DNA of 35,013 nucleotides from assembly GCA_035270125.1 (NCBI GenBank), contig DATFIM010000076.1:1-35013 (forward strand). The letters run 5' to 3'. The DNA is from Halanaerobiales bacterium. Its GTDB lineage: Bacteria; Bacillota; Halanaerobiia; Halanaerobiales; DATFIM01. The notes below the pieces were generated by a model. That model had not been told where the DNA came from and made no database searches. It worked only from the letters and a program-made list of their open reading frames with translations. This document shows positions 5,989 through 22,382 of the stretch, piece by piece. Made by a program: the position numbers and the translations under genes. The first letter of the stretch is position 1; every line of letters begins with the position of its first letter.

Positions 5989-6022
5989 ATTTAAAATAAA
6001 ATTTATGTTTGGAGGTGTAAAC

Positions 6023-7432
6023 TTGGAATTAAATATAGATAATAATCGTGGAAAGCATCTTGCTGTTATTTTAAATAATATAAATGAAGGAATTCATGTT
6101 GTTAATGAAAAAGGAGAAACAGTTATTTATAATAATAAAATGGCAGAACTTGAAGATATGGACAAAGAATCAGTTATCGGAAAACCATTATTAGATGTTT
6201 TTCCATCATTAGATGAAGAAAATAGTACTCTTTTAAGAACTTTGCATAGTGGAGAAAAAATTGAAAATAAACAACAGGAATATCTAAATAAATATGGGGA
6301 AAAAATAATTACAATTAATAGTACAATTCCGATAAAGTTTGAAAACGGTAAAATATGGGCCTTAGAGGTAGCCAAAGATATTACTGAAATTAAAAATTTA
6401 TACAATAAAATAAATATATTACAGGATAAATTATATAATAATGATGATTTTGAAGATGATGAAGATTCTTTATATACTTTTTCAGATATAAAAGGTGAAG
6501 ATCCAAAACTAAAAAAAGTAATTCAATATGCTAATCAGGCTGCCAAAACAGATTCTTCTATTTTAATTGTTGGAGACACAGGAACTGGAAAAGAATTGTT
6601 TGCCCAGAGTATTCATAATGCAAGTAGGAGAAGGGAAAAACCTTTTATTGCCCAAAATTGTGCAGCTTTACCAGAAAATTTATTAGAAGGTATTTTATTT
6701 GGTACTAGAAAAGGTGGGTTTACTGGAGCAGTTAACAGAAATGGCTTATTTGAACAGGCTAATGGAGGTACTTTGTTATTAGATGAAATTAATTCCATGT
6801 CCCCAACTTTACAGGCCAAACTTTTACGAGTTTTGCAGACAAATAAAGTACGACCTGTGGGTGGAGATGAGGAGATTAAGGTTGATGTAAGAATTATTGC
6901 TACTACTAACACACCACCTATTAAAGCAATAAGAAGTGGTGATTTAAGAGAAGATCTTTATTATCGTCTGGCTGTAGTTTTATTATATTTACCTTCATTA
7001 TCAGAAAGAAAAGAAGATATTGAATTGCTTTCAAATTATTTTATCAAAAAATTCAATAGAAAGTTTGCTACTAGAGTTAAAGGATTAAGTAAAGAAGTAA
7101 TAAATTTATTTAAAAAATATGAATGGCCAGGTAATGTAAGACAATTAGAACATGTAATTGAAGGAGCTATTAATATTTTAGGTAATGATAATTATATTAA
7201 AAAAGAACATGTTGAATCATTTTTAATTGATATAGAAGAAGAGAAAAAAGATTCTAATCAGAAAAAAATCCAAGATGAAGGAAAACTACCTGATATGATA
7301 GATAAATATGAAAAAGAAATAATTATTAATACTTTAGATGAAACAAATTGGAATATAACAAAAGCAGCAGAAAAATTAGGTATAAAAAGACAGAGCTTAC
7401 AATATAGAATTGATAAATATGAACTAAAATAA
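6023..7432 (+). CDS. RocR-like sigma-54-dependent activator (PAS-AAA+-Fis)
   Basis: A longer frame begins with ATG at 6005, but a strong GGAGGTG (6011-6017) lies inside it, 5 nt before TTG 6023, so the TTG start (469 aa) is preferred. Domain order is a PAS sensor (about 10-125), a linker and an AAA+ sigma-54 interaction domain (about 155-385) with Walker A GDTGTGKE at 184-191 and Walker B LLLDEIN. A Fis-type helix-turn-helix lies at the C-terminus (WNITKAAEKLGIKRQSLQYR). The sigma-54 contact loop reads GGFTGA (231-236) instead of the usual GAFTGA. There is no receiver domain, so it probably binds a ligand through PAS, as RocR does with ornithine or citrulline. It lies between ald and the ord operon, both of which have sigma-54 promoters with matching dyads, making it their likely activator. 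Family firm; ligand and targets inferred. Confidence 0.88.
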   Translation: MELNIDNNRGKHLAVILNNINEGIHVVNEKGETVIYNNKMAELEDMDKESVIGKPLLDVFPSLDEENSTLLRTLHSGEKIENKQQEYLNKYGEKIITINSTIPIKFENGKIWALEVAKDITEIKNLYNKINILQDKLYNNDDFEDDEDSLYTFSDIKGEDPKLKKVIQYANQAAKTDSSILIVGDTGTGKELFAQSIHNASRRREKPFIAQNCAALPENLLEGILFGTRKGGFTGAVNRNGLFEQANGGTLLLDEINSMSPTLQAKLLRVLQTNKVRPVGGDEEIKVDVRIIATTNTPPIKAIRSGDLREDLYYRLAVVLLYLPSLSERKEDIELLSNYFIKKFNRKFATRVKGLSKEVINLFKKYEWPGNVRQLEHVIEGAINILGNDNYIKKEHVESFLIDIEEEKKDSNQKKIQDEGKLPDMIDKYEKEIIINTLDETNWNITKAAEKLGIKRQSLQYRIDKYELK

Positions 7433-7687: not shown

Positions 7688-8707
7688 ATGAGTAATATTA
7701 AGGTTGTTTCCTGGGGCTTAGGAGCTATGGGTTCAGGAGTTGCTAAATTGGTTAATTCTAAAAAAGATATGGAATTGGTTGGAGCAATTGATAAGGATCC
7801 TGAAAAGATCGGTAAGGATTTAGGAGAAATAATTGAAGAAGGTAATTTAGGTGTAGATGTTGTTGAAGAATTTGATTATTCTAAAGATATTGCAGATATA
7901 GTTGTGATTGCAACAAGTTCATTTACAGAAACAGTATTTCCAATGATCAAAAAATCAGTTGAGGCTGGTTTAAATGTTGTTACTATTGCAGAAGAAATGG
8001 CCTATCCACAGGCTCAAAACCCAGAATTAGCAGAAAAAATAAATAAATTGGCAAAAGAAAATAATGTTAGTGTTTTGGGAACAGGTATTAATCCAGGGTT
8101 TGTATTAGATACTTTAATTCTAGCGATGACTGGAGTCTGTCAGGATGTTGAAAAAATTAAAGCTTCAAGAATAAATGATCTTTCACCATTTGGTCCGACA
8201 GTAATGGAAACTCAGGGAGTAGGTACTACTCCAGAAGAATTTGAAAAAGGTATAAAAGAAGGTACAATTGTAGGACATATTGGTTTTCAAGAATCTGTGA
8301 AAATGATTGCTGATAGTCTTGAAATTGATTTAGATGAAATTAAAGAAACTAGAGAAGCTATTATTTCTGAAACACATCGTGAAACTGATCATGTGACTGT
8401 AGAACCTGGAATGGTAGCAGGATGTAAACATATTGCCTATGGTATGAAAGATGGAGAAGAAGTTATTGTCCTAGAACATCCTCAGCAAATCCATCCAGAA
8501 AAAGAAGATGTAGATACAGGTGATTATATAAATATTGTTGGAGATCCAGATATAAACTTAAGCATTAAGCCAGAGATTCCTGGAGGGAAAGGGACTAAAG
8601 CAATTACTGCCAACATGATTCCACCAGTAATGGAAGCTGAATCCGGTCTGGTAACAATGAAAGATTTACGTGTTCCTTATTTTTTACCTAAGAAAATGAT
8701 GGAATAG
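7688..8707 (+). CDS. ord: 2,4-Diaminopentanoate dehydrogenase
   Basis: The product has 339 aa. Ord oxidatively deaminates (2R,4S)-2,4-diaminopentanoate to 2-amino-4-oxopentanoate using NAD(P)+, the third step of oxidative ornithine degradation. The N-terminal Rossmann motif WGLGAMGSGVAKLV (residues 9-22) and the dihydrodipicolinate-reductase-like fold are evident. Later stretches such as GTGINPGFVLD and the glycine-rich TGDYINIVGDPDINLSIKPE fit this family. The start has GGGGG upstream (7675-7680). It is the first gene of a run with the conserved order ord-ortA-ortB-(chaperone)-oraS-oraE, which fixes the assignment. Operon expression probably depends on sigma-54 and the adjacent RocR-like activator. 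Confidence 0.93.
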   Translation: MSNIKVVSWGLGAMGSGVAKLVNSKKDMELVGAIDKDPEKIGKDLGEIIEEGNLGVDVVEEFDYSKDIADIVVIATSSFTETVFPMIKKSVEAGLNVVTIAEEMAYPQAQNPELAEKINKLAKENNVSVLGTGINPGFVLDTLILAMTGVCQDVEKIKASRINDLSPFGPTVMETQGVGTTPEEFEKGIKEGTIVGHIGFQESVKMIADSLEIDLDEIKETREAIISETHRETDHVTVEPGMVAGCKHIAYGMKDGEEVIVLEHPQQIHPEKEDVDTGDYINIVGDPDINLSIKPEIPGGKGTKAITANMIPPVMEAESGLVTMKDLRVPYFLPKKMME

Positions 8708-8768
8708 TTAATTTTTAATAAATCTAGTTAATAAAAGTTGATTATTAATTTAAAGGGGGTAAATATTT

Positions 8769-9074
8769 ATGGAAAAGGTAGCGGCTGGTAAATGGGTTGA
8801 AATTCATAAAATTATCCTGGAAGCAGATGAAAGAGCTCCTCAGGTTCCTGAAGATACAAAAAAGGTACCACTTGAACTTAGAGTTAAAGGTTTTTTAGTA
8901 GAAGATGCTGAAGTTGGAGAAGAAGCAGAAATTGAAACTTTTACTGGGAGAAGACATAAAGGAACTTTAAAAGATTCAGATCCTTCCTATGATCATAAAT
9001 TTGGCAAACCAATCAAAGAATTACAAAAAGTTGGACCCCAAATTCGAAATATAATTAGAGATAAGGAGGTTTAA
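8769..9074 (+). CDS. ortA: 2-Amino-4-oxopentanoate thiolase, alpha subunit
   Basis: The product is a small 101-aa protein, the usual size for OrtA. It associates with OrtB to cleave 2-amino-4-oxopentanoate with CoA into acetyl-CoA and D-alanine. The sequence opens with KWVEIHKIILEADERAPQVP and holds GRRHKGTL and PSYDHKFGKP motifs, without the PLP lysine, which is in OrtB. It lies 61 bp after ord and 3 bp before ortB, with AAGGGGG as its ribosome binding site. Assignment relies on size, family resemblance and position immediately before ortB. Confidence 0.92.
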   Translation: MEKVAAGKWVEIHKIILEADERAPQVPEDTKKVPLELRVKGFLVEDAEVGEEAEIETFTGRRHKGTLKDSDPSYDHKFGKPIKELQKVGPQIRNIIRDKEV

Positions 9075-9077
9075 AAT

Positions 9078-10505
9078 ATGCCTGCAAATGATTATGAATC
9101 AGTAATGGCTAGAAATAATGAAATAATGAAAAAAGCAGTTGGTATAGATTATGATCGTTTTTCTCAGGGAAAAGTTGCTTTTGATTATGAAAGAATGATG
9201 TCAGAAGTGGGTTATAAACTTTCTCAGATTAGAAAGATTCAAAATGAAACTGGTGTTGGTAATACTCCATTATTGGAGATGAAAAATATAACTAAATTAG
9301 CTCGTAAACTTGCACCTGAAGGAAAAGGAGCTAGAATTTTTGTTAAAGATGAAGCTTCTAATCCTTCTGGCAGTTATAAAGCAAGAAGAGCTTCTGTCTC
9401 TGTTTATCATGCCCAGGAAAATGGTTATGATGGAGTAGTAGCAGCTACAAGTGGAAATTATGGAGCTGCTGTAGCATCACAGGCAGTGATGAGAGGCCTG
9501 GATAGCATTATTGTTCAGGAAGTATATGATAGTAGAGAAAAAGGACAGCCAGAAATTTTAGAAAAAGGTAGAAAATGTGAAGCTTATGGTTCTGAAGTTT
9601 TACAGCTTACTGTTGGACCTGAACTTTTTTATACATTTTTACGTGTTCTTGAAGATACTGGTTATTTTAATGCTTCCTTATATACCCCTTTTGGTATTGC
9701 TGGAGTTGAAACTTTAGGTTATGAACTATCTCAGCAAATGAAAGAAAGAGAAGGAAGAAATCCAGATGCTGTTATTGTTACTAATGCTGGTGGTGGTAAC
9801 TTAACAGGTACAGCTCGTGGACTTGAAAAGGCTGGAGCAGATGAAACAGAAATTGTAGCTGCCAGTGTAGATTTGAGTGGTCTTCATATGGCAAGTGATC
9901 ATGATTTTAATCGCAAATCATTTACTACCGGTCATACCGGTTTTGGGATTCCATTTGCTACCTGGCCTGATAGAGCAGATGTACCTTATAATGCTGCTCG
10001 TGCTTTAAGATATATGGATCGTTATGTGACTGTTAAACAGGGTGAGGTTTTCTATTTAACTGAAGCTCTTGCTCAAGTTGAAGGTGTTGAAAGAGGTCCA
10101 GCTGGCAACACTTCTTTAGCAGCAGCTTTTGCTCTTGCGCAAGAAATGGATGAAGATGAAATTATAGTTGTTCAGGAAACTGAATATACTGGTGCAGGAA
10201 AACATCCATATGCTCAATTAAATTTTGCTCGTGAAAATGGAATTGAGGTAAAAAATGGAGATCCTGATCAGGAAAAGGCTGGTGAATCTGTGATAATCCC
10301 AGATCATCCTAAACAGATTAAAGCTCGCGACTTAGATCTAGAAAATATTAAATTATCTTATTTGAAAAATATAGTTAAAAAGACAGAAGTAGAAAAGATA
10401 AATCAAACTGAACTCGAATTCCTTGCTGCTGAAGTTAATAAAACAACTTCAGAAGTAAAAGAAATTATGAAAAAGGAATTTGATGTGGAAGTAAATGGGG
10501 AATAA
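9078..10505 (+). CDS. ortB: 2-Amino-4-oxopentanoate thiolase, beta (PLP) subunit
   Basis: The product has 475 aa and a fold-type II PLP (tryptophan-synthase-beta/threonine-synthase-like) core. The likely PLP Schiff-base lysine is K101 in SNPSGSYKARRAS. A phosphate-binding asparagine/glycine loop, TSGNYGAAV, follows, and NAGGGNLTGTARGLE is also typical. With OrtA it performs the unusual PLP-dependent thiolysis yielding acetyl-CoA and D-alanine. Its ribosome binding site (AAGGAGG) overlaps the end of ortA, which suggests balanced translation. The D-alanine product gives meaning to alr at the end of this operon and to ald with its similar promoter. Confidence 0.94.
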   Translation: MPANDYESVMARNNEIMKKAVGIDYDRFSQGKVAFDYERMMSEVGYKLSQIRKIQNETGVGNTPLLEMKNITKLARKLAPEGKGARIFVKDEASNPSGSYKARRASVSVYHAQENGYDGVVAATSGNYGAAVASQAVMRGLDSIIVQEVYDSREKGQPEILEKGRKCEAYGSEVLQLTVGPELFYTFLRVLEDTGYFNASLYTPFGIAGVETLGYELSQQMKEREGRNPDAVIVTNAGGGNLTGTARGLEKAGADETEIVAASVDLSGLHMASDHDFNRKSFTTGHTGFGIPFATWPDRADVPYNAARALRYMDRYVTVKQGEVFYLTEALAQVEGVERGPAGNTSLAAAFALAQEMDEDEIIVVQETEYTGAGKHPYAQLNFARENGIEVKNGDPDQEKAGESVIIPDHPKQIKARDLDLENIKLSYLKNIVKKTEVEKINQTELEFLAAEVNKTTSEVKEIMKKEFDVEVNGE

Positions 10506-10507
10506 AA

Positions 10508-11899
10508 ATGAAAGTAGATTTACTAATTGCTGAAATTGGGAGTACAACTACTTTAGTTAATGCCTTTAGTGGGATAAATACAGATCAACCTGAATTTGTT
10601 GGCCAGGGTCTTGCACCAACTTCTGTTTTAGATGGAGATGTCATGATTGGTCTCGAAGGGGCTATTGATAACTTAAAAGAAAATTTAGCTATTGATGAAC
10701 TCGATTGGGATGAATTTATGGCTACAAGTAGTGCAGCAGGTGGCTTGAAGATGACGGTTCATGGACTTGTAAAAGATATGACTGTTAAAGCTGCTGAAGA
10801 GGCCGCTCTTGGAGCAGGGGCTGTTATTAGGCAGGTTACAGCTGGTAAACTTCGTGAAAGAAGAATAGAAGAGCTGCTTGATATTCAACCCAATATTATT
10901 TTGCTGGCTGGTGGAGTTAATTATGGCGAAGAAGAAGTTATACTTCATAATGCTCGTAAACTTTGTGAACTTGATCTGGATGTTCCAGTAATCTATGCTG
11001 GAAATAAAGTTTTACAGGATGAAGTAAAAGAAATGTTTGAAGAAGCTGGAAAAGAAATTTTAATTGCTGATAATGTTTATCCTGAGATTGATACTCTAAA
11101 TATAGAAGAAACAAGAAAATTAATACACAATGTTTTTGCTCGTCATATTGTAAGAGCACCTGGAATGAAAAAAATTGAATCTATGCTTTCAATTGATATG
11201 ATGCCTACTCCAGGAGCTGTTATGCAGGGGGCTAAATTACTAAAAGAAAAAATAGGTAATTTAGTAACTCTTGATGTAGGAGGGGCGACAACTGATGTCC
11301 ATTCAGTTACTACTGATTCTGGGGCTATAAAAGAAATACTTTTAAGTCCTGAACCAGAAGCCAAAAGAACTGTTGAAGGAGATTTAGGTGTATTTTTAAA
11401 TGCTCCTCAAGTTTATGAAATGTTGAAAAAAGAATTAGCTGAACAGGGTAAAAAAGTTGAAAAAAGAGAAGATTTGGCTCCATTACCCAGGGATAAAAAG
11501 GAAGAAGAATATATTCAAATTTTAGCTAAAAAAGCAGCTGTTACTGCTGTGAGAAGACATGCTGGTAAAATGAAAGATTATTTTGGGCCTTCCGGAAGGA
11601 TGACAGTTGCCGAAGGTAAAGACCTTACGGCAGTAAAATGGGTTATAGGAACTGGAGGAGCTTTAACAAGATTAACAGATGGAAAAGAAATTTTGAAAAA
11701 AGTTAGAGGAAAAGATAAAAGAATTCTTTTACCGACCAAAGATGCAGTAGCTTTAATAGATAAAGATTATATTATGGCATCTATGGGTCTTATGAGCCAA
11801 AAATATCCAGAAGCTGCCCAAAAATTGTTGCTAAATAGTGTGAAAAACGAAAAAGTTGAAAAATATTTAGAAGATATGAAAGTCAAAAATAAAAGTTAA
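10508..11899 (+). CDS. MutL/GlmL-family protein, likely ornithine aminomutase reactivating factor
   Basis: The product has 463 aa and belongs to the MutL (glutamate mutase-associated) family of actin/Hsp70-fold ATPases, not to DNA-repair MutL. The phosphate-binding motif IAEIGSTTTLVNAF lies near the N-terminus, LLAGGVNYG near residue 140, a second loop LDVGGATTDVHS near residue 255, and WVIGTGGALTRL near residue 380. Relatives accompany B12-dependent aminomutases and are thought to exchange damaged cobalamin. It starts 2 bp after ortB and is followed by oraS and oraE, which need adenosylcobalamin, so the role follows from context. Biochemical evidence for this exact protein type is limited, so the function is an inference. 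Confidence 0.85.
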   Translation: MKVDLLIAEIGSTTTLVNAFSGINTDQPEFVGQGLAPTSVLDGDVMIGLEGAIDNLKENLAIDELDWDEFMATSSAAGGLKMTVHGLVKDMTVKAAEEAALGAGAVIRQVTAGKLRERRIEELLDIQPNIILLAGGVNYGEEEVILHNARKLCELDLDVPVIYAGNKVLQDEVKEMFEEAGKEILIADNVYPEIDTLNIEETRKLIHNVFARHIVRAPGMKKIESMLSIDMMPTPGAVMQGAKLLKEKIGNLVTLDVGGATTDVHSVTTDSGAIKEILLSPEPEAKRTVEGDLGVFLNAPQVYEMLKKELAEQGKKVEKREDLAPLPRDKKEEEYIQILAKKAAVTAVRRHAGKMKDYFGPSGRMTVAEGKDLTAVKWVIGTGGALTRLTDGKEILKKVRGKDKRILLPTKDAVALIDKDYIMASMGLMSQKYPEAAQKLLLNSVKNEKVEKYLEDMKVKNKS

Positions 11900-11911
11900 G
11901 GAGTGATTTTA

Positions 11912-12286
11912 ATGCCTATTGATAGAGATGATAATTTTGAAGAAAGGCGAAAACATCTTCAAGATTTATCTGATAAAGAATTAAAAGAAAGATTTTGGAA
12001 TTTAGCAGAGGAAATTGTTGATCCATTAATTGATACAGCTGAAACTCATACTTCCCAATCAATAGAAAGATCAGTTTTATTGAGGATGGGATTTAATAGT
12101 TTGGATGCAAAAGCAATAGTAAAAAAAGTGGCTGAATCTGATCTTTTAGGTAAGGGAGCAGGTCATGTGCTTCTAAAATTAGCTGAAAAAGAAGAAATGG
12201 AAGTAAAAGAAGCAGGTTTAGCTATTGTTGATGGAGAATTTTCTAAAAAAGATTTAAAAGAACTTTTTAACGGAGGTGAAAAATAA
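11912..12286 (+). CDS. oraS: D-Ornithine 4,5-aminomutase, small subunit
   Basis: An in-frame GTG exists at 11903, but AAGGAG (11898-11903) overlaps it and is well placed (8 nt) for ATG 11912, so the 124-aa form is chosen. This is close to the ~121 aa known for Clostridium sticklandii OraS. The protein is helical, with ERRKHLQDLSDKELKERFW and the segment DTAETHTSQSIERSVLLRMG, and ends in KDLKELFNGGEK. It forms the heterodimeric unit with OraE, which moves the omega-amino group of D-ornithine to C4. Its stop overlaps the oraE start by one base, so translation is probably coupled. Confidence 0.93.
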   Translation: MPIDRDDNFEERRKHLQDLSDKELKERFWNLAEEIVDPLIDTAETHTSQSIERSVLLRMGFNSLDAKAIVKKVAESDLLGKGAGHVLLKLAEKEEMEVKEAGLAIVDGEFSKKDLKELFNGGEK

Positions 12287-14478
12287 TGGGTTTAAAACCA
12301 GATGAAAAGCTAGATATAGAAGAATTGCTAGAAGATATAGAAGATTATAGGCCAAGAAGAAAAGGCTGGACCTGGAGAAATAAGGTTGAAGATAAAAAAT
12401 TAGGTGATTTTACTTATAAAGAAATGAGTGAAGATCTGGAAAATAGTGTACCATTACCTGCTGCCAGTAGTTTTGATGATATAGATCCTCAACCTGAACC
12501 TGTAATTACTACTGAAATTGCTTCTGGTCGTTTTGAAGATGATATAAGGAGAATGAGAATGGCTGCCTGGCATGGTGCTGACCATATTATGGTTATTAGA
12601 ACAGCTGGTCAGAGTCATATGGATGGCTTAATAGAAGGAACTCCTCAGGGTGTTGGAGGAATTCCAATAACTCGTAAACAAATTAGAGTAACCAGAAAAG
12701 CTCTTGATTTAGTAGAAGATGAAGTGGGACGTCCTATTAATTTCCATTCTTATGTAAGTGGAGTAGCCGGTCCTGAGATAGCAGTTTTATTTGCAGAAGA
12801 AGGAGTAAATGGAGCTCACCAGGATCCACAATATAATGTTCTTTATCGTGATGTAAACATGTATCGTTCATTTGTAGATGCTGCAGTAGCCAAAAAATTA
12901 ATGGCCAGTGTTGATATGTTACAAATTGATGGAGCTCATAATGCTAATGCTACTGCCAGAAAAGCCTGGAATGTTATGCCAGAACTTTTTGTTCAGCATG
13001 CTATAAACTCCATGTTTTCAATGAAAGCTGGTATGCCAAAAGATAAGATTGCTCTTTCAACTGTACCACCTGCAGCTCCACCGGCTCCAGATTTAAGAAT
13101 AAATATGCCATATGCAGTTGCATTACGTGATTTATTTGAAGGTTTCCGTTTTAGAGCTCAACAAAACACAAAGTATATGGAATCTTCAGTTAGAGAGGCT
13201 ACAGTTACTCATACTTTAAACCTCCTTATTTCAGAACTTACTTCTGCTGATCTACAGAGTACAATCACTCCTGATGAAGGTAGAAATGTACCATGGCATT
13301 ATTATAATGTCCAGGCAGTTGATACTGCCAAACAGGCCTTTGCAGGTATGGATGGTTTAAAAGAATTATTAGAATTAAAAGATGAAGGTGTCTTAAGAGA
13401 TGATGCACGTGAATTAAAAGAAAGAGCTGTTCTATTTTTAGAAGAAATAAAAGATGAAGGTGGTTATTTCAAAGCTGTTTCTGAAGGCTATTTTGTTGAT
13501 TCTGGTCATTATCCGGAAAGAAATGGTGATGGAATTGTCCGTAAGATGGATGGAGGAGTAGCAGCTAATAGTATTGTACCTCGTGAAGATGATTACCTTG
13601 CTCCAGTTTGTGAGCATTTTGGTTATAATAATCTTCCAGAAGATATTGATAAACCCTGTGATTTAATTGGTGGCTGTACTCTTCATAATCCAGATAAAAT
13701 AGATTTTATAGACGAATTAGATAAAGAAGATAATGTAGAAGAAAGATTAAAAGAAAATAAAGACTTTAGAAAAGGGAATAAGTTAAAGCCTGAAGTCGAA
13801 TGGCTTGGTGATGGCTGGGTCAATACTACCTTATTTTTACCAACCAGTCAGGATATTGCTGAAGTTGCAGCACAAAAAATAGGTGAAAAAATGGGTCTCA
13901 AAAAGGTAGAAGTTATCCATCGGGAAGTTATGCACCCTTCTGAAGGTACCTTAATTGAAATGAAAGGTCAGGTTGATTTTTCAATTGATATTGAAAATCT
14001 AGAAATTCCTGAAAAAGAAGAACCACTTCCTTATGATGAACTTCGTGGTTATGTTGATGATAAACCAATGAATGTTGTTGCTGCTACAGTAGGTGAAGAT
14101 GAACATTCAGTTGGAATGAGAGAAATTATAGATATTAAACATGGTGGAATTGAGAAGTTTGGTTTTGATGTAACTTATCTTGGAACTTCAATACCAATTA
14201 AAAAGGTTGTAGATGCTGCTGTTGAAGTTAATGCTGATGTGATTTTGATCAGTACAATTATTTCTCATAATGATATTCACCGTAAAAATATGCAGAAATT
14301 ACATGATTTATGTGTTGAAAAAGGTATTAGAGATGATGTAATGTTAATTGCCGGTGGTACTCAGGTTACAGATGATATAGCTAAAGATGCTGGTATGGAT
14401 GCTGGATTTGGTCGCGGAACCCATGGTGATGATGTGGCTACCTTTATTGTTAAAAAAGATAGAGGAGAGATTGAATAA
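12286..14478 (+). CDS. oraE: D-Ornithine 4,5-aminomutase, large (B12/PLP) subunit
   Basis: The product has 730 aa, typical for OraE. The first ~550 residues form the substrate/PLP TIM-barrel part (e.g. IRTAGQSHMDGLIEGTPQGV and FHSYVSGVAGPEIAVLFAEEG). A C-terminal Rossmann cobalamin domain begins near residue 590. The cobalamin ligand motif DxHxxG is seen as DEHSVG with H607. The PLP lysine lies exactly 11 residues later (K618, in DIKHGGIEKFG), the same spacing as His618/Lys629 of the C. sticklandii enzyme. The enzyme converts D-ornithine to (2R,4S)-2,4-diaminopentanoate. The gene is preceded directly by oraS and followed after one base by alr. Confidence 0.96.
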   Translation: MGLKPDEKLDIEELLEDIEDYRPRRKGWTWRNKVEDKKLGDFTYKEMSEDLENSVPLPAASSFDDIDPQPEPVITTEIASGRFEDDIRRMRMAAWHGADHIMVIRTAGQSHMDGLIEGTPQGVGGIPITRKQIRVTRKALDLVEDEVGRPINFHSYVSGVAGPEIAVLFAEEGVNGAHQDPQYNVLYRDVNMYRSFVDAAVAKKLMASVDMLQIDGAHNANATARKAWNVMPELFVQHAINSMFSMKAGMPKDKIALSTVPPAAPPAPDLRINMPYAVALRDLFEGFRFRAQQNTKYMESSVREATVTHTLNLLISELTSADLQSTITPDEGRNVPWHYYNVQAVDTAKQAFAGMDGLKELLELKDEGVLRDDARELKERAVLFLEEIKDEGGYFKAVSEGYFVDSGHYPERNGDGIVRKMDGGVAANSIVPREDDYLAPVCEHFGYNNLPEDIDKPCDLIGGCTLHNPDKIDFIDELDKEDNVEERLKENKDFRKGNKLKPEVEWLGDGWVNTTLFLPTSQDIAEVAAQKIGEKMGLKKVEVIHREVMHPSEGTLIEMKGQVDFSIDIENLEIPEKEEPLPYDELRGYVDDKPMNVVAATVGEDEHSVGMREIIDIKHGGIEKFGFDVTYLGTSIPIKKVVDAAVEVNADVILISTIISHNDIHRKNMQKLHDLCVEKGIRDDVMLIAGGTQVTDDIAKDAGMDAGFGRGTHGDDVATFIVKKDRGEIE

Positions 14479-14479
14479 A

Positions 14480-15601
14480 ATGAAAGCCGATATTACTCGA
14501 CCTGTCTGGGCTGAAATTGATCTTGATAATTTCAGCCATAATATTAGGATGATCAAAGAACATGTTTCACAGGAAACATCTATTATGGCTGTAGTAAAAG
14601 CTGATGCTTATGGACATGGATCAATTCCTGTTGCCAGAAAAGCCTTGAATTCTGGAGCAGACAGACTTGCAGTTGCCATTCCAGAAGAAGGGATAGAATT
14701 ACGAAAAGCAGGTTTTGAGATTCCTATTCAAATCTTTGGTGAAATTTTAGAAAATCAGTATCCTTTAATAGTAGATTATGATTTGATACCTACAGTTTGT
14801 AAGAAAAAAACTGTTAATGGATTGGCTAAATATGCCAAAAAGAAAAATAAGAAAGTGAAAATTCATGTTAAAATAGATACAGGAATGGGAAGAATAGGAG
14901 TTTTTCCAGAGGATGCAGTAGAATTTATCAAAGAGGTTAAAGAATATGAAAATATCGAAATAGAAGGAATTATAACCCATCATGCAAAAGCAGATGAAAA
15001 AGATAAGGAATATACTTATAAGCAGTGGGATGAGTTCCAAAGTATAATTAATGAACTTGAAGAAAAAGAAATTGAAATTCCGATAAAACAGGCAGCCAAT
15101 AGTGCAACAATAATTGATCTCCCTAAAATGCAGTTAGATATGGTTAGACCGGGAATTATGCTTTATGGGATGAGACCTTCTCATGAAGTACAGAAATTCC
15201 CCTTAAAACCAGTATTAAGCTGGAAAACGAAAATAGTATACTTAAAAGAAGTTCCACCTGGAACTGGAATAAGTTATGGAGCAACTTTTATAACAGAGGA
15301 AAAAAGAAAAATCGCTACATTGCCTTTAGGATATGCTGATGGATATTTTAGATTACTCTCTAATAAAGGTGAGGTTTTAATTAATGGTCAGAGAGCACCG
15401 ATTAGAGGAAGAGTCTGTATGGATCAGTTCATGGTTGATGTAACAGATATTTCTGATGTAGAAATAGGAGATGAAGTAGTTTTAATTGGAGAACAGGGAG
15501 ATGATGAAATTACTGCAACAGAATTGGCAGATTTAATAGGAACTATCAATTATGAAATAACATGTTCTATAAGTAAAAGAGTACCTCGTGTTTATAAATA
15601 A
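14480..15601 (+). CDS. alr: Alanine racemase
   Basis: The frame is open further upstream (to 14387), but that part lies inside oraE and lacks a ribosome binding site. AGAGGAG at 14461-14467 supports ATG 14480, giving 373 aa, the usual Alr length. The PLP lysine is K40 in AVVKADAYGHGS. The catalytic tyrosine of the second domain is Y266 in GISYGATF. MVRPGIMLYG and RVCMDQFMVD are also standard. The reaction is L-alanine/D-alanine interconversion. Only one base separates it from oraE, so it is in the ornithine operon. There it can turn the D-alanine made by OrtAB into L-alanine for Ald, besides supplying cell-wall D-alanine. A terminator follows. Confidence 0.95.
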   Translation: MKADITRPVWAEIDLDNFSHNIRMIKEHVSQETSIMAVVKADAYGHGSIPVARKALNSGADRLAVAIPEEGIELRKAGFEIPIQIFGEILENQYPLIVDYDLIPTVCKKKTVNGLAKYAKKKNKKVKIHVKIDTGMGRIGVFPEDAVEFIKEVKEYENIEIEGIITHHAKADEKDKEYTYKQWDEFQSIINELEEKEIEIPIKQAANSATIIDLPKMQLDMVRPGIMLYGMRPSHEVQKFPLKPVLSWKTKIVYLKEVPPGTGISYGATFITEEKRKIATLPLGYADGYFRLLSNKGEVLINGQRAPIRGRVCMDQFMVDVTDISDVEIGDEVVLIGEQGDDEITATELADLIGTINYEITCSISKRVPRVYK

Positions 15602-15628
15602 TTTAAAGAAAAATATTATTTAATGAAG

Positions 15629-15662
15629 ATGTCCCTTTAATAGAGGGACATTTTTATTTTTA
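15629..15662 (+). terminator. Rho-independent terminator after alr
   Basis: ATGTCCCT (15629-15636) pairs with AGGGACAT (15644-15651), followed by TTTTTATTTT. It closes the ord-to-alr operon and separates it from orr. Confidence 0.9.
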
Positions 15663-15692
15663 ATAAAGATTCATATTTTTAATATATTAATA

Positions 15693-15743: not shown

Positions 15744-16829
15744 ATGTATCCAAAATTAGAAGTCTATCCTGGAAAAATAAAAAACAATACAGAAATAATA
15801 AAAAAATTATGCAAAAAAAATAATATAAAATTAGCAGTTGTTAGTAAGGGAGCCAATAATATTCCAGAAGTAGTTGAAGCATTAATTGCTGGAGGAGCAG
15901 ATTATTTAGCTGATTCAAGAATAAAGAGATTCAAAAAATTAAGATCATTTGTGAAAAATTTACCGTTAATGTTGCTTAGGATTCCTGGCCCTGGAGAGAT
16001 AAAGGAAGTAATTAAATATGCTGATATAAGTCTTAACTCAGAAATTGAAATTATTAAATTACTTAATGAAGAAGCTAAAATACAAAGTAAAATGCATAAA
16101 ATAGTATATATGCTTGAATTAGGAGATTTAAGAGAGGGAGTTTATCCAGCAGAAAAAGTAATAGAAAAAATTAAAGAGGTAAATAAATTATCGAATATTA
16201 GTTTAGAAGGTATTGGAACAAATTTAAGTTGTTATGGGGGAATTAAACCTGATGAAAAAAATCTTGGTAAACTTTCAGATTTGGCTAAAAAAATAGAGAA
16301 ACAATTTAATCAAAAATTGAATATAGTTTCAGGAGGTTCAACTACAAGTTTACCACTACTTTTAGATGATAAAATGCCTAAAAAAATAAATAATTTAAGA
16401 ATTGGTGAATCAATTTTATTAGGAAGAGATATAGAATCATTATGGGACTATAATATTAAAGGTATTAAAAAAGATACATTTATATTAAAAGCAGAAATAA
16501 TTGAATTAAAAGATAAACCTTCAAAACCTTTTGGGCAACCTTTTGTAGATGCTTTTGGTCATAAACCCAGTTTTGAAGATCATGGAAAGAGAAAAAGGGC
16601 AATTTTGGGAATAGGTAAGGCTGATTTTGTTTACCCTGATCAACTTATACCTTTAAAAGAAGGAATAGAAATATTAGGAGCAAGTAGTGACCATCTTATA
16701 GTTGATGTAGAAGATGTGGAAGAAGATCTTTCACTGGGGGATATTATAAATTTTAATTTATTTTATGGACCAATGCTTTATCTGACAGCATCATCTTTAG
16801 TTGAAAAAGAAATTATAAATTGGAGGTAA
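15744..16829 (+). CDS. orr: Ornithine racemase (alanine-racemase-fold PLP enzyme)
   Basis: The product has 361 aa and the N-terminal domain of alanine/ornithine racemases of the C. sticklandii Orr type, distinct from the Alr at 14480. The PLP lysine is probably K35 in LAVVSKGANNIPEV. GIGTNLSCYGGI, NIVSGGSTTSLPLL and LRIGESILLGRD are typical phosphate- and PLP-binding segments. Its expected role is L- to D-ornithine, the entry step of the pathway. It is separated from the ord operon by a terminator and heads a run of four more genes (gaps 4, 1, 37 and 29 bp). The assignment is supported by both sequence type and locus. Confidence 0.9.
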   Translation: MYPKLEVYPGKIKNNTEIIKKLCKKNNIKLAVVSKGANNIPEVVEALIAGGADYLADSRIKRFKKLRSFVKNLPLMLLRIPGPGEIKEVIKYADISLNSEIEIIKLLNEEAKIQSKMHKIVYMLELGDLREGVYPAEKVIEKIKEVNKLSNISLEGIGTNLSCYGGIKPDEKNLGKLSDLAKKIEKQFNQKLNIVSGGSTTSLPLLLDDKMPKKINNLRIGESILLGRDIESLWDYNIKGIKKDTFILKAEIIELKDKPSKPFGQPFVDAFGHKPSFEDHGKRKRAILGIGKADFVYPDQLIPLKEGIEILGASSDHLIVDVEDVEEDLSLGDIINFNLFYGPMLYLTASSLVEKEIINWR

Positions 16830-16833
16830 TTTT

Positions 16834-18018
16834 ATGGATAATATTAAAAAATTAGTAAAGAAATATGAAGAAGAGGTAATTAAAATAAGAAGAGATCTAC
16901 ATAAGCATCCAGAAGTTGGTTTTGATTTAGCAAGAACTTCTAAAAAAGTTGCAAATATATTAAATGAGTTAGGTTTTGAAGTGAAAACTGAAATCGGCAA
17001 AACAGGAGTAGTGGGGATAATAGAAGGTAATAATGATGGTCCTACTATAGCTTTAAGGGCAGATATGGATGCTCTTCCAATGGAAGAGAAAACTGATTTA
17101 GATTTTGCATCAGTAGAAAAGGGAAAAATGCATGCCTGTGGTCATGATGGACATACAGCTATATTACTTGGAGTGGCAATGGTTTTAGCAGAGATCAAAG
17201 ATAAACTAAGGGGTAATGTTAAATTGATATTTCAACCAGCTGAAGAAGGCCCTGGTGGAGCTGAGCCGATGATTGAAGATGGTGTTATGGATGCACCTAA
17301 AGTTGATGCTATTTTGGGATTGCATATCTGGCTGGAAATGGATGCCGGTAAAGTTGGAGTAAAAAAAGGTCCATTATTTGCATCTATTGATGAAGTTGAT
17401 ATTAAAATCAAGGGGGATAGTTCCCATGGAGCAAGTCCTCATCAGGGAGTAGATGCTATTACTACTGCTGCTGAAGTTATAAATTCTCTACAATCAATAG
17501 TAAGTAGAAAAATTGATCCTATTGATTCAGCAGTAGTAACAATTGGTAAAATTGAAGGTGGTTATGTTCGAAATGTTATTGCTGATGAGGTTAATTTAGA
17601 AGGAACAATAAGGGCTTTAAATCCTGAAGTTAGAAAGCAATTGGAGGATGAAATTCGTAAAAAGGTTAAAAATATATGCCTAGCATCTGATGCTGATTAT
17701 GAAATTGATTATCGTCACATGTATCCACCATTAGTTAATGATAAAGATATTACTGATTTAGTGAAAGAAAATGCTATTAAAGTTATGAAATCTGAAAATG
17801 TAATCGATGTTAAAGAGCCAACAATGGGAGGAGAAGATTTTGCCTATTTTCTTAAAGAAGTACCTGGAACATTTTTTCTTTTGGGAGGAAGAAATGAAGA
17901 AAAGGGAATAACAGCTGCTCACCATAATACCCATTTTACTTTTGATGAAGATATTATGACTGATGGAATAGAAATTATGATAAAATCAGTTTTAGATTTT
18001 TTAGAAAGGAATGAATAA
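16834..18018 (+). CDS. M20D amidohydrolase (N-acyl-amino-acid/hippurate hydrolase type)
   Basis: The product has 394 aa and the complete M20D metal-site pattern: RRDLHKHPEVGFD near residue 20, ALRADMDALPM near residue 72, MHACGHDGHTA near residue 100, QPAEEGPGGAEPMI near residue 133, and a C-terminal MGGEDFAYF. No signal peptide is seen. The family cleaves amide bonds of N-acyl amino acids, hippurate or small conjugates. Its ribosome binding site lies in the last codons of orr. As part of the orr operon it may release ornithine or other amino acids from conjugates. The exact substrate cannot be told. Confidence 0.9.
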   Translation: MDNIKKLVKKYEEEVIKIRRDLHKHPEVGFDLARTSKKVANILNELGFEVKTEIGKTGVVGIIEGNNDGPTIALRADMDALPMEEKTDLDFASVEKGKMHACGHDGHTAILLGVAMVLAEIKDKLRGNVKLIFQPAEEGPGGAEPMIEDGVMDAPKVDAILGLHIWLEMDAGKVGVKKGPLFASIDEVDIKIKGDSSHGASPHQGVDAITTAAEVINSLQSIVSRKIDPIDSAVVTIGKIEGGYVRNVIADEVNLEGTIRALNPEVRKQLEDEIRKKVKNICLASDADYEIDYRHMYPPLVNDKDITDLVKENAIKVMKSENVIDVKEPTMGGEDFAYFLKEVPGTFFLLGGRNEEKGITAAHHNTHFTFDEDIMTDGIEIMIKSVLDFLERNE

Positions 18019-18019
18019 A

Positions 18020-19372
18020 ATGTATGATTTAGTTTTAATTAATGGGAAAATAATTGATCCACTGGATGGAATATATAAGGCAAATATAGGAATTAAAAAT
18101 GGAAAAATAAAAGAAATTACTGAAGATAAGTTAGAGGGAAATAAAATTATAGATATAAATTCTAAATTTATAGTACCAGGTTTTATTGATATCCATATGC
18201 ATGAAGATAATATAAAAGAAGGAAAGATCAAATTTGAAATCTTTAATAATATGGTTCAAATGGGTGTTACTACTGCTATTGGTGGTAATTGTGGTCTGGG
18301 GGATGCTGAGATAGGTAATTATCTTGAAATACTTGAAAAAGAAAATCCTCCTCTTAATTATGGAGGAATGATTGGTCATGGTTCATTAAGAGAAAAAGTA
18401 GGTTGTAATGATAGGTATGGGAAAGCCAGTCAAAAAGAAGTTAAAGAGATGAAAAATCTTTTAAAAAAAGGTCTTGATGCGGGAGCATTGGGACTATCAT
18501 TTGGTCTTGAATATACTCCAGGAGCAACAATTATGGAGATGATTGAATTATGTAAAGTTGTAGCAGAATATCCTGAGCGTTTTGCAGCCGCCCATTATCG
18601 ATTTGATGCTGATCGTTCTTTAGAAGCAATTGCCGAAATGATTATTATTGCCAGAGAAAGTGGAGTTAAATTTCAAATTTCTCATATTGGGAGCTGTTCA
18701 GCTTTTGGTCAGATGGATACAGCTTTAGAAATGATTGATGCAGCCAGGAAAGGTGGAGTAGATATTATGGCAGATGTTTACCCCTATGATGCTTTTAGTA
18801 CTTTTGTTGGTAGTGCTGTTTTTGATGAAGGATGTTTTGAAAAATGGGGAGTAGATTATAGTGCCATAAAAGTAACTGAAGGAAAATATAAAGGGCAGAG
18901 ATGTAATAAAGAGATTTTTGAAGATATTAGAAAAAATGAACCAGACGATTTAGTAGTAGCTTTTGTAATGGAGGAAAGGGAAGTATTAAAAGCTATGAAA
19001 CACCCTGTAGTAATGATAGCAAGTGATGGAATATTAAATGAAGGTCAGGGTCATCCGCGAGCTGCTGGAACATTTCCCAGAGTTTTAGGAAAATATGTGA
19101 GAGAAGAAAATGAACTTGAACTGATTAATGCTATCGAGAAAATTACTAGAATGCCAGCTGAAAGGTTAAATTTAACTAATAAAGGTAGAATCAAAAAAGA
19201 TTTTGATGCAGATATTACCATTTTTGATTATGACCAGATACTTGATAAAGCTACCTTTGATGATCCAGTTAAAGCACCAACTGGTATAGAATATGTAATA
19301 GTGAATGGTAAGTTGGTAGTAAATGAGGGAAATTTAACAGGTGCCAATTCTGGTAAGGTGATTAGGAAATGA
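18020..19372 (+). CDS. N-acyl-D-amino-acid deacylase-type amidohydrolase
   Basis: Two in-frame ATGs exist, 18011 and 18020. AAAGGA (18005-18010) abuts the first and is about 9 nt from the second, so the second (450 aa) is chosen. The amidohydrolase metal site starts with PGFIDIHMHED (HxH), continues with AAHYRFDADRSLEAI and QISHIGS (the carbonyl-side histidines), and has the late IASDGI aspartate. N- and C-terminal strands form the usual small beta domain (NGKIIDPLDG; GKLVVNEGNLTG). The family includes D-aminoacylases acting on N-acyl-D-amino acids. Its position one base after the M20D gene and downstream of a racemase gene fits a D-amino-acid role. Substrate unproven. Confidence 0.86.
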   Translation: MYDLVLINGKIIDPLDGIYKANIGIKNGKIKEITEDKLEGNKIIDINSKFIVPGFIDIHMHEDNIKEGKIKFEIFNNMVQMGVTTAIGGNCGLGDAEIGNYLEILEKENPPLNYGGMIGHGSLREKVGCNDRYGKASQKEVKEMKNLLKKGLDAGALGLSFGLEYTPGATIMEMIELCKVVAEYPERFAAAHYRFDADRSLEAIAEMIIIARESGVKFQISHIGSCSAFGQMDTALEMIDAARKGGVDIMADVYPYDAFSTFVGSAVFDEGCFEKWGVDYSAIKVTEGKYKGQRCNKEIFEDIRKNEPDDLVVAFVMEEREVLKAMKHPVVMIASDGILNEGQGHPRAAGTFPRVLGKYVREENELELINAIEKITRMPAERLNLTNKGRIKKDFDADITIFDYDQILDKATFDDPVKAPTGIEYVIVNGKLVVNEGNLTGANSGKVIRK

Positions 19373-19409
19373 TTCAATGAATAAAATATCACAATAGGGA
19401 GGTGAGATA

Positions 19410-20609
19410 TTGAACTTAGTGAAATTATTGAAAGAAAAAATTTCACAAAAAGAATTGAATAATCTTATTAGTGATTTGGTAAAAATTCCCAGTACCCCAG
19501 ATTCCAAAAATTATGAGAAAGATGTAGCAGAATTTATTCATGATTTTTTTCATAATGAAGGGATTGAATCTAAATTAGTAAAGGTAAAAGATGATCGACC
19601 AAATGTAGTTGCTAAAATCAAAGGGACTAATGAGGGTAAATCATTGATGTTAACAGGTCATATGGATACTGTTCCAGCTTATAATATGGATATTGAACCT
19701 TTTAGTGGAGAAATTAAAAATGGAAAAATATATGGCAGAGGTTCTGTTGATATGAAAGGACCTTTAGCCTGTATGATTTTGGCGTTAGTTGCAATAAAAA
19801 GAGCTAATATTAAATTAAAAGGCGACTTGATTTTTGTGGGAGTAATAGAAGAAGAATATAAAAGTTTTGGAACAGAATATCTGGTTAAAAATGGTCCAAA
19901 AGCCGATGCAGCAATAGTTGGTGAACCTTCAAAGTTGGATATAGCTGCCGGTCATAGAGGGCTTGAATGGCTGGAAGTTACAATTGAGGGAAAGACAGCT
20001 CATGGTGGAACAGCAAGTGAGGGGATAAATGCTATTTCCAAAGCAGCAAAATTCATAAATAAAGTAGAGGAGGTGTTATTACCACAGTTTGCTGAAAGAA
20101 AACATGATTTGATTGGTCCACCAACCCTTAACTTTGGGGTGATAGAAGGTGGAACTCAACCAAGTAGTGTAGCCGGTGAATGTAAAATTCAGATTGATAG
20201 GAGATGGACTCCCTTAGAAACACTTGATCAGGTTTTTTTAGATTTTGAAAAGATTATTGATCAATTAAAAAATGAAGATAAAGATTTTAAGGCAAGGATT
20301 GATAGAATTCCCAGTAATATGGCTACTATGGATCATATGCCAATGGAGATAGCATTAGATCATCCGCTTGTTAGCAAACTAGAAAAAGTTACTGAAAAAA
20401 TAAAGGGTAAAAAAGCAGATGTTGTGTCTTTTCCTGGCTGGACAGATGCTTCTTTGATCAGCAATTTTGCTAATATCGATACAGTTGTATTTGGCCCTGG
20501 GGATATTTCCTGTGCCCATTCTGAAGTAGAATATATTGATTATAAAGAGGCTTATCAGGGATTTTTGATTTATAGTTTAATAGCTATTAATTTTTGTGAG
20601 TTAAAATAA
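19410..20609 (+). CDS. M20 family metallopeptidase/deacylase (ArgE/DapE type)
   Basis: The start is TTG 19410 after GGGAGGTGA; the product has 399 aa. M20 metal ligands are visible: LTGHMDTVP near residue 77, YGRGSVDMKGPLA near residue 110, GVIEEEYKSFGTEY near residue 147, and VGEPSK. A late HSEVEYID supplies the final histidine. The lid domain carries HRGLEWLEVTIEGKTAHGG. Relatives include acetylornithine deacetylase, succinyl-diaminopimelate desuccinylase and YgeY-type enzymes of amino-acid catabolic loci. N-acetylornithine or an ornithine-like conjugate is an attractive substrate given orr upstream, but this is inference. A broken paralogue lies at 31944-32435, sharing FPGW(T/S)DA and the GH(M/I)DT(V/I)P motif. 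Confidence 0.9.
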   Translation: MNLVKLLKEKISQKELNNLISDLVKIPSTPDSKNYEKDVAEFIHDFFHNEGIESKLVKVKDDRPNVVAKIKGTNEGKSLMLTGHMDTVPAYNMDIEPFSGEIKNGKIYGRGSVDMKGPLACMILALVAIKRANIKLKGDLIFVGVIEEEYKSFGTEYLVKNGPKADAAIVGEPSKLDIAAGHRGLEWLEVTIEGKTAHGGTASEGINAISKAAKFINKVEEVLLPQFAERKHDLIGPPTLNFGVIEGGTQPSSVAGECKIQIDRRWTPLETLDQVFLDFEKIIDQLKNEDKDFKARIDRIPSNMATMDHMPMEIALDHPLVSKLEKVTEKIKGKKADVVSFPGWTDASLISNFANIDTVVFGPGDISCAHSEVEYIDYKEAYQGFLIYSLIAINFCELK

Positions 20610-20638
20610 ACATTTAATAAAAAGAGGAGGAATTATTA

Positions 20639-22048
20639 ATGGAGAATAAAGAGAAGAAAAAAGCAGGTATTGGGATCAAGATTCCTCATGTACTGGTATT
20701 ATTATTTGCAATTATTATAATTGCAGCTATTTCTACCTATATTGTAACCCCTGGAGTTTATGATAGAGTGGAAAAAGGGGGAAGGACTGTTATAGAACCA
20801 GGTTCTTATGAAGTGGTAGAAAGAAATGCTGTTGGTGTTTTTGGAATTTTAAAATCTGTACCTAAAGGTTTAAATGAAGTAGCTTATATTGTGTTTTTCA
20901 TATTTATTGTTGGGGGAGCTTTTGGTGTAATTGCTGAAACCGGGGCAGTTGATGCTGGGATTGCAAAATTAACGAGAGTTTTAGAAGGAAGAGAAAAAAT
21001 AATTATACCGGCAGTAATGGGAGTTTTTGCTTTAGGTGGTTCAACTCTTGGGATGGCTGAAGAAACACTCGCTTTTCTACCGGCTATTGTGCCTCTGGCA
21101 ATAGCGCTTGGTTTTGATTCAATTACTGGAGCAGCCATGGTTCTGGTAGGAGCAGGAGCCGGTTTTGCAGGTGCATTTATGAATCCATTTACAGTTGGTA
21201 TAGCTCAGGGAGTAGCAGAATTACCATTGTTTTCAGGTATGGCCTTTAGAGTAGGAGTCTGGGTGGTTATTACTGGAATAGCAATAGCCTATGTTTATAG
21301 ATATGCCAGTAAAATAAAAGAAAATCCTGAATTAAGTCCAGTTTATGAAGATGATCTAAATAAAGAAGACCATGTTGATTTAGAAAAATTTGAGGAAATG
21401 GGAACACATCATAAAAGTGTTTTAGCAGTAGTTGTAATTGTTTTTGGTCTGCTTATTTGGGGAGTAACTCAATATGGCTGGTTTATTACTGAAATATCTG
21501 CTCTTTTTCTTGGAATGGGAATAGCAGCCGGTATTGTTGGTAGATTAGGCCTGGGTGGTACAGCTGATGCCTTTGTTAAAGGAGCTAAGAATTTAACCAT
21601 GGCTGCTTTAATTGTTGGAGTTGCCCGTGGTATTTTAGTAGTATTAAATGAAGGTCACATAATTGATACGATTTTACATTCAGTATCAGTGGCAATTGAA
21701 GGACTACCGTCCTATTTTTCAGCTCTAGGTATGTACTTATTCCAGTGTGCCCTAAATATAATTGTTCCTTCTGGTAGTGGACAGGCTGCGCTAACTATGC
21801 CTATTATGGCTCCTTTATCTGATTTAGTAGGTGTAACAAGACAGACAGCAGTTCTTGCCTATCAATTGGGAGATGGGTTTACAAATATCTGGTCACCAAC
21901 TTCTGGTTATTTTATGGCCGGTCTTGGATTGGCTGGAGTGGCCTGGGGTAAATGGGCTAAATGGTTTTTACCTCTTTTAGGTATTTGGATGGTAGCAGGA
22001 GGAATCTTAGTGACTATAGCTCATTTTATTCAATTAGGTCCATTTTAA
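20639..22048 (+). CDS. YfcC-family (ArcD-like) amino-acid carrier
   Basis: The product is a 469-aa polytopic membrane protein with about 11-12 hydrophobic segments. The family signature is clear: KIPHVLVLLFAIIIIAAIST at the N-terminus, ETGAVDAGI, GMAEETLAFLPAIVPLAIALG, AGFAGAFMNPFTVGIAQG, and the C-terminal FQCALNIIVPSGSGQAALTMP and NIWSPTSGYFMA. This is the YfcC/short-chain dicarboxylate carrier family, whose members include arginine/ornithine exchangers and other amino-acid transporters. It ends the orr operon and is the natural candidate for importing ornithine or the acylated substrates of the enzymes upstream. No terminator is visible after it. Family firm, substrate inferred. Confidence 0.88.
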   Translation: MENKEKKKAGIGIKIPHVLVLLFAIIIIAAISTYIVTPGVYDRVEKGGRTVIEPGSYEVVERNAVGVFGILKSVPKGLNEVAYIVFFIFIVGGAFGVIAETGAVDAGIAKLTRVLEGREKIIIPAVMGVFALGGSTLGMAEETLAFLPAIVPLAIALGFDSITGAAMVLVGAGAGFAGAFMNPFTVGIAQGVAELPLFSGMAFRVGVWVVITGIAIAYVYRYASKIKENPELSPVYEDDLNKEDHVDLEKFEEMGTHHKSVLAVVVIVFGLLIWGVTQYGWFITEISALFLGMGIAAGIVGRLGLGGTADAFVKGAKNLTMAALIVGVARGILVVLNEGHIIDTILHSVSVAIEGLPSYFSALGMYLFQCALNIIVPSGSGQAALTMPIMAPLSDLVGVTRQTAVLAYQLGDGFTNIWSPTSGYFMAGLGLAGVAWGKWAKWFLPLLGIWMVAGGILVTIAHFIQLGPF

Positions 22049-22100: not shown

Positions 22101-22120
22101 TATAGAAAATTTAAAAGGAT

Positions 22121-22382
22121 AAAACGATGAACAGGACTAGTAAATTCTTTTTTTGACCTAGAAAGCTAATGATTACTGTAAATTAGCTCAGAAGAAGAAT
22201 TGAATCCACCTGAGAGTGAAAAAGTGAACTTCTAAAATAGCTTTTTAGAAAAGTAGTTTTTTTCGGTAGAAGCCCGTTATAGCTTACCCAGTGGTTAAAA
22301 AACTTAACCATCAGGGTGGTACCGTGGGAAATGAACTCAAACCTCGCCCCTGTCTTAATTGACAGTGGTGAGGTTTTTTTAA
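22121..22382 (+). ncRNA. Serine T-box riboswitch leader (specifier UCC)
   Basis: The leader has the full T-box plan. Stem I begins near CAGGACTAGTA, with base pairing CAGG (22132-22135) to CCTG. The specifier helix AATTCTT/AAGAATT is followed by GAA-TCC-A, placing the specifier codon UCC (serine) at 22205-22207. An upper hairpin AGCTAAT/ATTAGCT is also visible. The T-box consensus AGGGTGGTACCGTGG is at 22313-22327, with the UGGU bulge that pairs with an uncharged tRNA 3' end. The terminator (22340-22382) pairs AACCTC with GAGGTT and CCTGTC with GACAG before a T7 run. Uncharged tRNA-Ser should promote antitermination and serS expression. This region fills the gap between the YfcC gene and serS. 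Confidence 0.93.

Follow-up and report, generated by a model that had tools for sequence, protein, structure and literature searches.

Organization of the five-gene unit

The window analysed here comprises all 35,013 nucleotides of contig DATFIM010000076.1 from the draft genome (243 contigs) of a Halanaerobiales bacterium (assembly GCA_035270125.1). Downstream of an ornithine-fermentation operon ending in oraE-alr, it holds five closely packed genes on the forward strand (positions 15744-22048), encoding a racemase (orr), an M20D amidohydrolase, an amidohydrolase of D-aminoacylase fold (designated AHYD), an ArgE/DapE-type M20 enzyme and a YfcC-type carrier. The first-pass annotation of this DNA had described these genes as an almost gapless block, and all five were indeed found there, with intact reading frames. 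The features of the unit and its borders are as follows:

15622..15665, +, intrinsic terminator in the alr-orr gap (hairpin TGTCCCT/AGGGACA plus T-tract)
15744..16829, +, orr, pyridoxal phosphate-dependent enzyme of the ornithine/alanine racemase family (NF040742), first gene of the unit, preceded by an AGGAGG site
16834..18018, +, M20D amidohydrolase, predicted cytosolic N-acyl-L-amino-acid/peptide hydrolase (TIGR01891)
18011..19372, +, AHYD, amidohydrolase of D-aminoacylase/N-acyl-D-glutamate deacylase fold, subfamily of about 450 amino acids (PRK09061)
19410..20609, +, ArgE/DapE-type M20 deacylase (TIGR01910), with a TTG start codon preceded by a good GGGAGGTGA site
20639..22048, +, YfcC-type carrier of the DcuC/basic amino acid antiporter superfamily (PF03606, PRK11588)
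22118..22354, +, T-box leader of serS (RF00230, 119 bits), right-hand border of the unit

The spacings within the unit are, in order, +4, -8, +37 and +29 bases, and a Shine-Dalgarno-like site precedes each gene, the one before orr being strong. The family matches span most or all of each of the five products, with E-values against the best NCBIfam models of 7e-129 (orr), 5e-129 (M20D), 3e-98 (AHYD), 3e-92 (ArgE-type) and 1e-122 (YfcC). Some of these matches lie below the cut-offs set by NCBIfam itself, namely those of Orr (429.8 bits over the full length, curated cut-off 480), AHYD (329.6 bits against 340 for PRK09061) and the carrier (409.9 bits against 500 for the PRK11588 YfcC equivalog), and for this reason the names Orr, PRK09061 amidohydrolase and YfcC are less secure than they appear. 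The M20D gene exceeds the cut-off of its model (418.6 bits against 153.75), and the carrier belongs to the DcuC superfamily (PF03606, 397 bits), with a further weak match to ABG_transport.

The predicted terminator between alr and orr is strong, with a folding free energy of -20.6 kcal/mol (z -5.6 over 15602-15665), and is followed by TTTTTATTTTT. The five genes therefore most likely constitute a transcription unit of their own, separate from the oraE operon, rather than the tail of the latter; the operon and terminator calls were both made from sequence alone. No match to a sigma-54 promoter with up to two mismatches was found directly before orr or ord, and matches to sigma-70 promoters did not rise above chance level. 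An Rfam scan of the window returned the serS T-box and one tRNA only, with no lysine riboswitch. The G+C content of orr is 27%, while the other four genes (33-38%) resemble their neighbours; a shift in base composition as a mark of recent transfer was rejected, since no consistent shift runs across the unit.

The racemase and M20D genes appear linked to ornithine metabolism

The genome encodes two Orr-family genes, the window orr and a paralogue on contig C124. The contexts of such racemases were surveyed in 101 genomes, using cut-offs that miss distant members. In a tree of 37 members, a clade linked to oraE or arginase genes was separated from a clade linked to lysine 5,6-aminomutase with 99/99 support; the window orr falls in the former and the C124 paralogue, which adjoins kamDE, in the latter. 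The agreement between context and clade is imperfect, as the oraE-linked racemase of genome G095 stands at the base of the kamDE-linked clade. This tree position supports the assignment of orr as an ornithine racemase made in the first-pass annotation, and we infer that it probably serves this genome as its ornithine racemase.

The C124 gene (L012, 10477-11547) groups separately with its relatives beside lysine 5,6-aminomutase; these kamDE-adjacent genes, although annotated as ornithine racemases, are candidate lysine racemases. At three further loci (L140, L144, L150) an rpsD-rpoA-ECF (extracytoplasmic function)-truA-rplM region directly precedes an Orr-family racemase gene and then a predicted arginase gene; the arginase beside a same-clade racemase was confirmed by a model for L140 only, the layout of which L144 and L150 share. 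The idea that the shared racemase neighbours represent a metabolic cluster was rejected, since they include ribosomal and RNA polymerase genes (rpsD, rpoA, rplM).

The M20D protein has structurally characterized relatives in YxeP (1ysj) and ILL2 (1xmb). Its presence alone says little, because the genome contains about seven M20D genes and 18 M20-family matches. Its relatives are more informative: M20D genes with 50-63% identity to it stand directly before ord in genomes G006, G008, G012 and G028. A first tree that included long and partial rows placed the window gene in a polytomy, and after removal of these rows it grouped with these four in a 100/99 clade, which also holds one G003 gene without an adjoining ord. 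When all but two outgroup rows were kept, the tree did not resolve this grouping, and the approximately unbiased test did not reject it (p-AU 0.49).

An M20 gene of any kind is located directly upstream of ord in 6 of the 21 genomes in which the preceding gene is visible, compared with 0.09 expected if 950 genes per Mb are assumed; with relatedness handled solely by counting families, this corresponds to 3 of 13 (P about 3e-5). From the two trees and these counts, the racemase and M20D genes look like the ornithine-linked layer of the unit.

Hydrolase and carrier genes at other ornithine operons

In G325, a pair of YfcC and ArgE-type genes is found at a distance of about 6 kb from or4/oraE. 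The gene immediately preceding ord in G040 and G049 is of ArgE type and belongs to a related group. The G040 copy (L221, 3862-5076) is intact; the G049 copy (L192, 11287-12500) is split by a frameshift. The G040 gene is accompanied by tripartite ATP-independent periplasmic (TRAP) transporter genes and by an amidohydrolase sharing the broad fold of AHYD, and a like set of TRAP, amidohydrolase and ArgE-type genes occurs in G002, on a contig with an oraE fragment at its end. In G001 and G041, ord is preceded by AgcS, large M20 proteins and orr.

The neighbourhood comparison suggested in the first-pass annotation thus revealed both an excess of M20 genes upstream of ord in three families and other hydrolase-carrier sets in relatives. 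The accompanying statement that no pathway with exactly this gene set had been described holds for the exact set, which is limited to the window's genome among those checked; M20 hydrolases and/or carriers beside ornithine operons are recurrent, with varying parts.

AHYD lacks the lysine of classical D-aminoacylases

Among proteins of solved structure, those nearest to AHYD are an N-acyl-D-glutamate deacylase (3gip) and a D-aminoacylase (1m7j). AHYD retains every metal ligand (HxH, the Cys of GNCG, H195, H225 and SDG), together with the carboxylate-site Tyr and Arg. A structural study reports strict conservation of a Lys that binds the substrate alpha-carboxylate across D-aminoacylases, D-glutamate deacylases and OngB, where it is Lys254 (PMC12017989). 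AHYD has SHIGSC in this loop instead of SHHK and so lacks this residue, which is missing from all of its relatives of about 450 amino acids as well, and present in 16 of 16 classical relatives compared. Therefore, "N-acyl-D-amino-acid deacylase", the type to which AHYD had been assigned, stands as a description of fold and metal site and is unproven as an activity. Judged from these residues, the anchoring of the substrate in the AHYD subfamily must differ from that in classical D-aminoacylases, and the subfamily is likely misnamed in databases, whose names for it should not be trusted.

In loci L161 and L162, AHYD relatives are flanked on one side by a sensor kinase and on the other by genes for a protein of AtuA-family size, a small protein and a response regulator. 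AtuA identity was confirmed for L161, and this sensor kinase/response regulator setting represents a further recurrent context of the subfamily.

AHYD, ArgE-type and YfcC-type genes form a recurrent cassette

The ArgE-type protein belongs to the ArgE/DapE deacylase subfamily (TIGR01910, 309.8 bits, cut-off 217.6) and falls short of the acetylornithine deacetylase equivalog (TIGR01892, 197.1 bits, cut-off 297.7). Its orthologues are linked to YfcC, with one related group linked to ornithine operons, and orthologues of the carrier adjoin AHYD and/or ArgE-type genes. In a survey of about 400-500 genomes, with cut-offs that miss distant members, AHYD was found beside a YfcC-type carrier in 13 other loci (G002, G003, G019, G026, G079, G084, G102, G109, G231, G389, L072, L074 and L075), which often include an ArgE-type or other M20 gene; orr is not nearby in any of them. 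The closest carriers (77-80% identical) are those of G002, G019 and G026, with 77-78% for the latter two.

Since this cassette occurs in genomes without ornithine aminomutase, its substrate need not be ornithine. In this respect the first-pass view of all five genes as one system that channels ornithine into fermentation is not supported. AHYD, the ArgE-type gene and the carrier are probably a general cassette that was borrowed; ornithine conjugates may be among its substrates but are probably not the only ones.

The carrier of the unit is only about 39-41% identical to its paralogues in the same genome, including the arcA-linked one. One paralogue (C116, L174) belongs to an arcA-YfcC-M20 set adjoining ornithine carbamoyltransferase, and another (C192, L173) to a set comprising M20D, DUF1028, YfcC and a carbamoylase-type amidase. 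ArcE and YfcC share one superfamily. ArcE (TC 2.A.118) exchanges arginine, ornithine and citrulline (PMC5300872), and C. difficile yfcC forms an apparent operon with an M20D gene under a lysine riboswitch (PMC11477304). By analogy with these two cases, basic amino acids or their conjugates would be no more than a reasonable guess for the substrate of the carrier.

The same two cases, the former with the S. pneumoniae arcA-B-C-E-T order (PMC5300872), could be read to mean that the carrier works as an ArcE-like arginine/ornithine/lysine exchanger, with the M20 enzymes acting as dipeptidases on Arg/Orn/Lys peptides, in parallel with the arcE-arcT arrangement. The presence of arcA, a YfcC paralogue, an M20 gene and ornithine carbamoyltransferase on C116 is consistent with such an arrangement in this organism, but it also means that the role is already filled there, and the window carrier is distant from this paralogue and belongs to the group linked to AHYD and ArgE-type genes. 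We regard this explanation as quite improbable.

The neighbouring ornithine operon and the slot before serS

Three features upstream of the unit are relevant to its interpretation:

5033..5968, +, peptidase of the M19 (renal dipeptidase) family, encoded between ald and the gene for the PrdR-like activator (PF01244, 357 bits)
6005..7432, +, PrdR-like sigma-54-dependent activator, candidate regulator (NF041552, 395 bits, cut-off 795)
7688..15601, +, ornithine-fermentation operon ord-ortA-ortB-or4-oraS-oraE-alr (NF040740, NF040739, NF040741, NF040744 and NF040743 over their cut-offs)

Ord, OrtA, OrtB, Or-4 and OraE all exceed the curated cut-offs and their genes are contiguous, as in an operon for oxidative ornithine degradation. 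The operon is preceded by ald, the M19 gene and the PrdR-like activator gene, homologues of which adjoin ornithine operons in relatives. The last gene of the operon, alr (14465-15601), encodes the sole alanine racemase of the genome, and oraE-alr pairs recur in many relatives, which fits D-alanine as a product of ornithine oxidation (PMC3091704). A role of Alr as a second ornithine racemase was not favoured, given that the genome has no other alanine racemase and the pathway makes D-alanine (PMC3091704). The M19 peptidase is another enzyme beside the operon that could free D-residues from dipeptides.

Taken with the D-aminoacylase fold of AHYD, the M19 peptidase, the racemase and alr would fit the use of D-amino-acid peptides or cell-wall fragments, with AHYD, the M20 enzymes and the M19 dipeptidase freeing D-residues that the racemase converts. 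We consider this very improbable, since AHYD lacks the alpha-carboxylate Lys of D-aminoacylases, the unit has no carrier of muropeptide type, and alr and ald are accounted for by D-alanine from ornithine oxidation (PMC3091704).

In relatives, of the same order at closest, serS follows the ornithine operon directly (G004), after alr (G011), or after one or a few unrelated genes (G005, G012, G013, G017, G020). The unit thus occupies a position whose gene content varies among genomes. It is possible, though the proposal stays tentative, that a general conjugate-scavenging cassette came to stand next to the ornithine operon by chance and frees various amino acids (e.g., basic or acidic ones or D-residues), ornithine being incidental. 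The variable slot and the separate terminator are consistent with this, as are the AHYD-YfcC pairs in genomes lacking oraE and a nearby orr, and an AHYD relative that adjoins oligopeptide-type ATP-binding cassette (ABC) transporter genes (L168). A chance neighbour would not be expected, however, to combine in one unit an orr of the ornithine clade and an M20D gene of the ornithine-operon clade, nor does it account for the recurrence of M20 genes directly before ord.

Proposed function

We interpret the five genes as a composite salvage unit attached to a locus of oxidative ornithine fermentation, a reading for which belief and doubt are about evenly balanced. In this model, the YfcC-type carrier would import an N-acylated or peptide-bound amino acid, perhaps against export of a product. 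Three cytosolic metallohydrolases (the L-type M20D, the ArgE-type M20 and the barrel-fold AHYD) would each cut different conjugates, and the racemase would equilibrate the freed L- and D-ornithine, supplying D-ornithine to the D-ornithine-specific OraSE. Ord and OrtAB would then yield acetyl-CoA and D-alanine, and the latter could be recycled by alr and ald. The racemase and M20D would be the ornithine-dedicated part of the unit. The sequence itself shows the gene content, the packing with the terminator, the phylogenetic ties of orr and M20D to ornithine operons and the independence of the AHYD-YfcC cassette; import, hydrolysis, ornithine as the released product and the range of L- and D-acyl amino acids are all inferred. 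The similar first-pass proposal, in which conjugates are imported and ornithine is channelled into fermentation, is thus retained for the racemase and M20D and not for the link of the cassette to ornithine.

Several observations weigh against the composite salvage unit. In the other genomes checked, orr was not found in one unit with AHYD, ArgE-type and YfcC-type genes, and oraE is absent from the AHYD-YfcC genomes G019, G026, G079, G231 and G389. No substrate is known for any enzyme of the unit or for close relatives of AHYD and the carrier. Given the predicted terminator, the unit may not be co-regulated with the ornithine operon.

A stronger version would be a dedicated pathway that imports and opens both L- and D-conjugates of ornithine (or arginine), with AHYD and its lysine-free anchoring acting on an undescribed conjugate and so feeding ornithine fermentation; this seems unlikely. 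The first-pass interpretation is partly supported overall, and we view the region as a locus for ornithine fermentation to which a probable conjugate-hydrolysing unit has been added.

Amino-acid fermenters are usually described as users of free amino acids. If ornithine operons regularly come with dedicated carriers and enzymes that cut amides, ornithine in bound form (acetylated, peptide-linked or conjugated in some other way) would be an overlooked substrate, and gene neighbourhoods would offer a direct route to identifying which bound form is used. The YfcC-linked amidohydrolase subfamily is, in addition, a recurrent and uncharacterised group of enzymes.

Comparison with known systems

In the p-aminobenzoyl-glutamate utilization system of Escherichia coli (AbgT/AbgA/AbgB), the carrier is a distant relative of YfcC, and M20D hydrolases cleave the amide once it has been imported; the window unit differs from this system in carrier family, in substrates and in the presence of a racemase. 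A YfcC-family carrier with an M20D hydrolase is also found in C. difficile CD3100-3099 (PMC11477304), for which no racemase, AHYD or ArgE-type gene is reported and which has a lysine riboswitch, whereas none was found in the window. The arcE-arcT end of the streptococcal arginine deiminase operon (PMC5300872) similarly places a carrier of the same superfamily and a downstream enzyme gene around ornithine metabolism, but the window unit is without arc genes, and the arcA-YfcC-M20 set of this genome is located on C116. With the D-aminoacylase/N-acyl-D-glutamate deacylase/OngB family (1m7j, 3gip, 9kb1), AHYD shares the fold, the metal ligands and the substrate-side Tyr and Arg; it differs in lacking the alpha-carboxylate Lys, in its SHIGSC-type signature and in being shorter.

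A close parallel for the locus as a whole is the oxidative ornithine degradation cluster (orr, oraSE, ord, ortAB and or4) of Clostridium sticklandii and C. difficile: in the window, all genes of this pathway adjoin the unit, which itself starts with an Orr-family racemase. Unlike in that cluster, orr of the window is grouped apart from the pathway operon with three hydrolase genes and a YfcC-type carrier gene, oraE is followed by alr, and an M19 peptidase gene and ald lie upstream.

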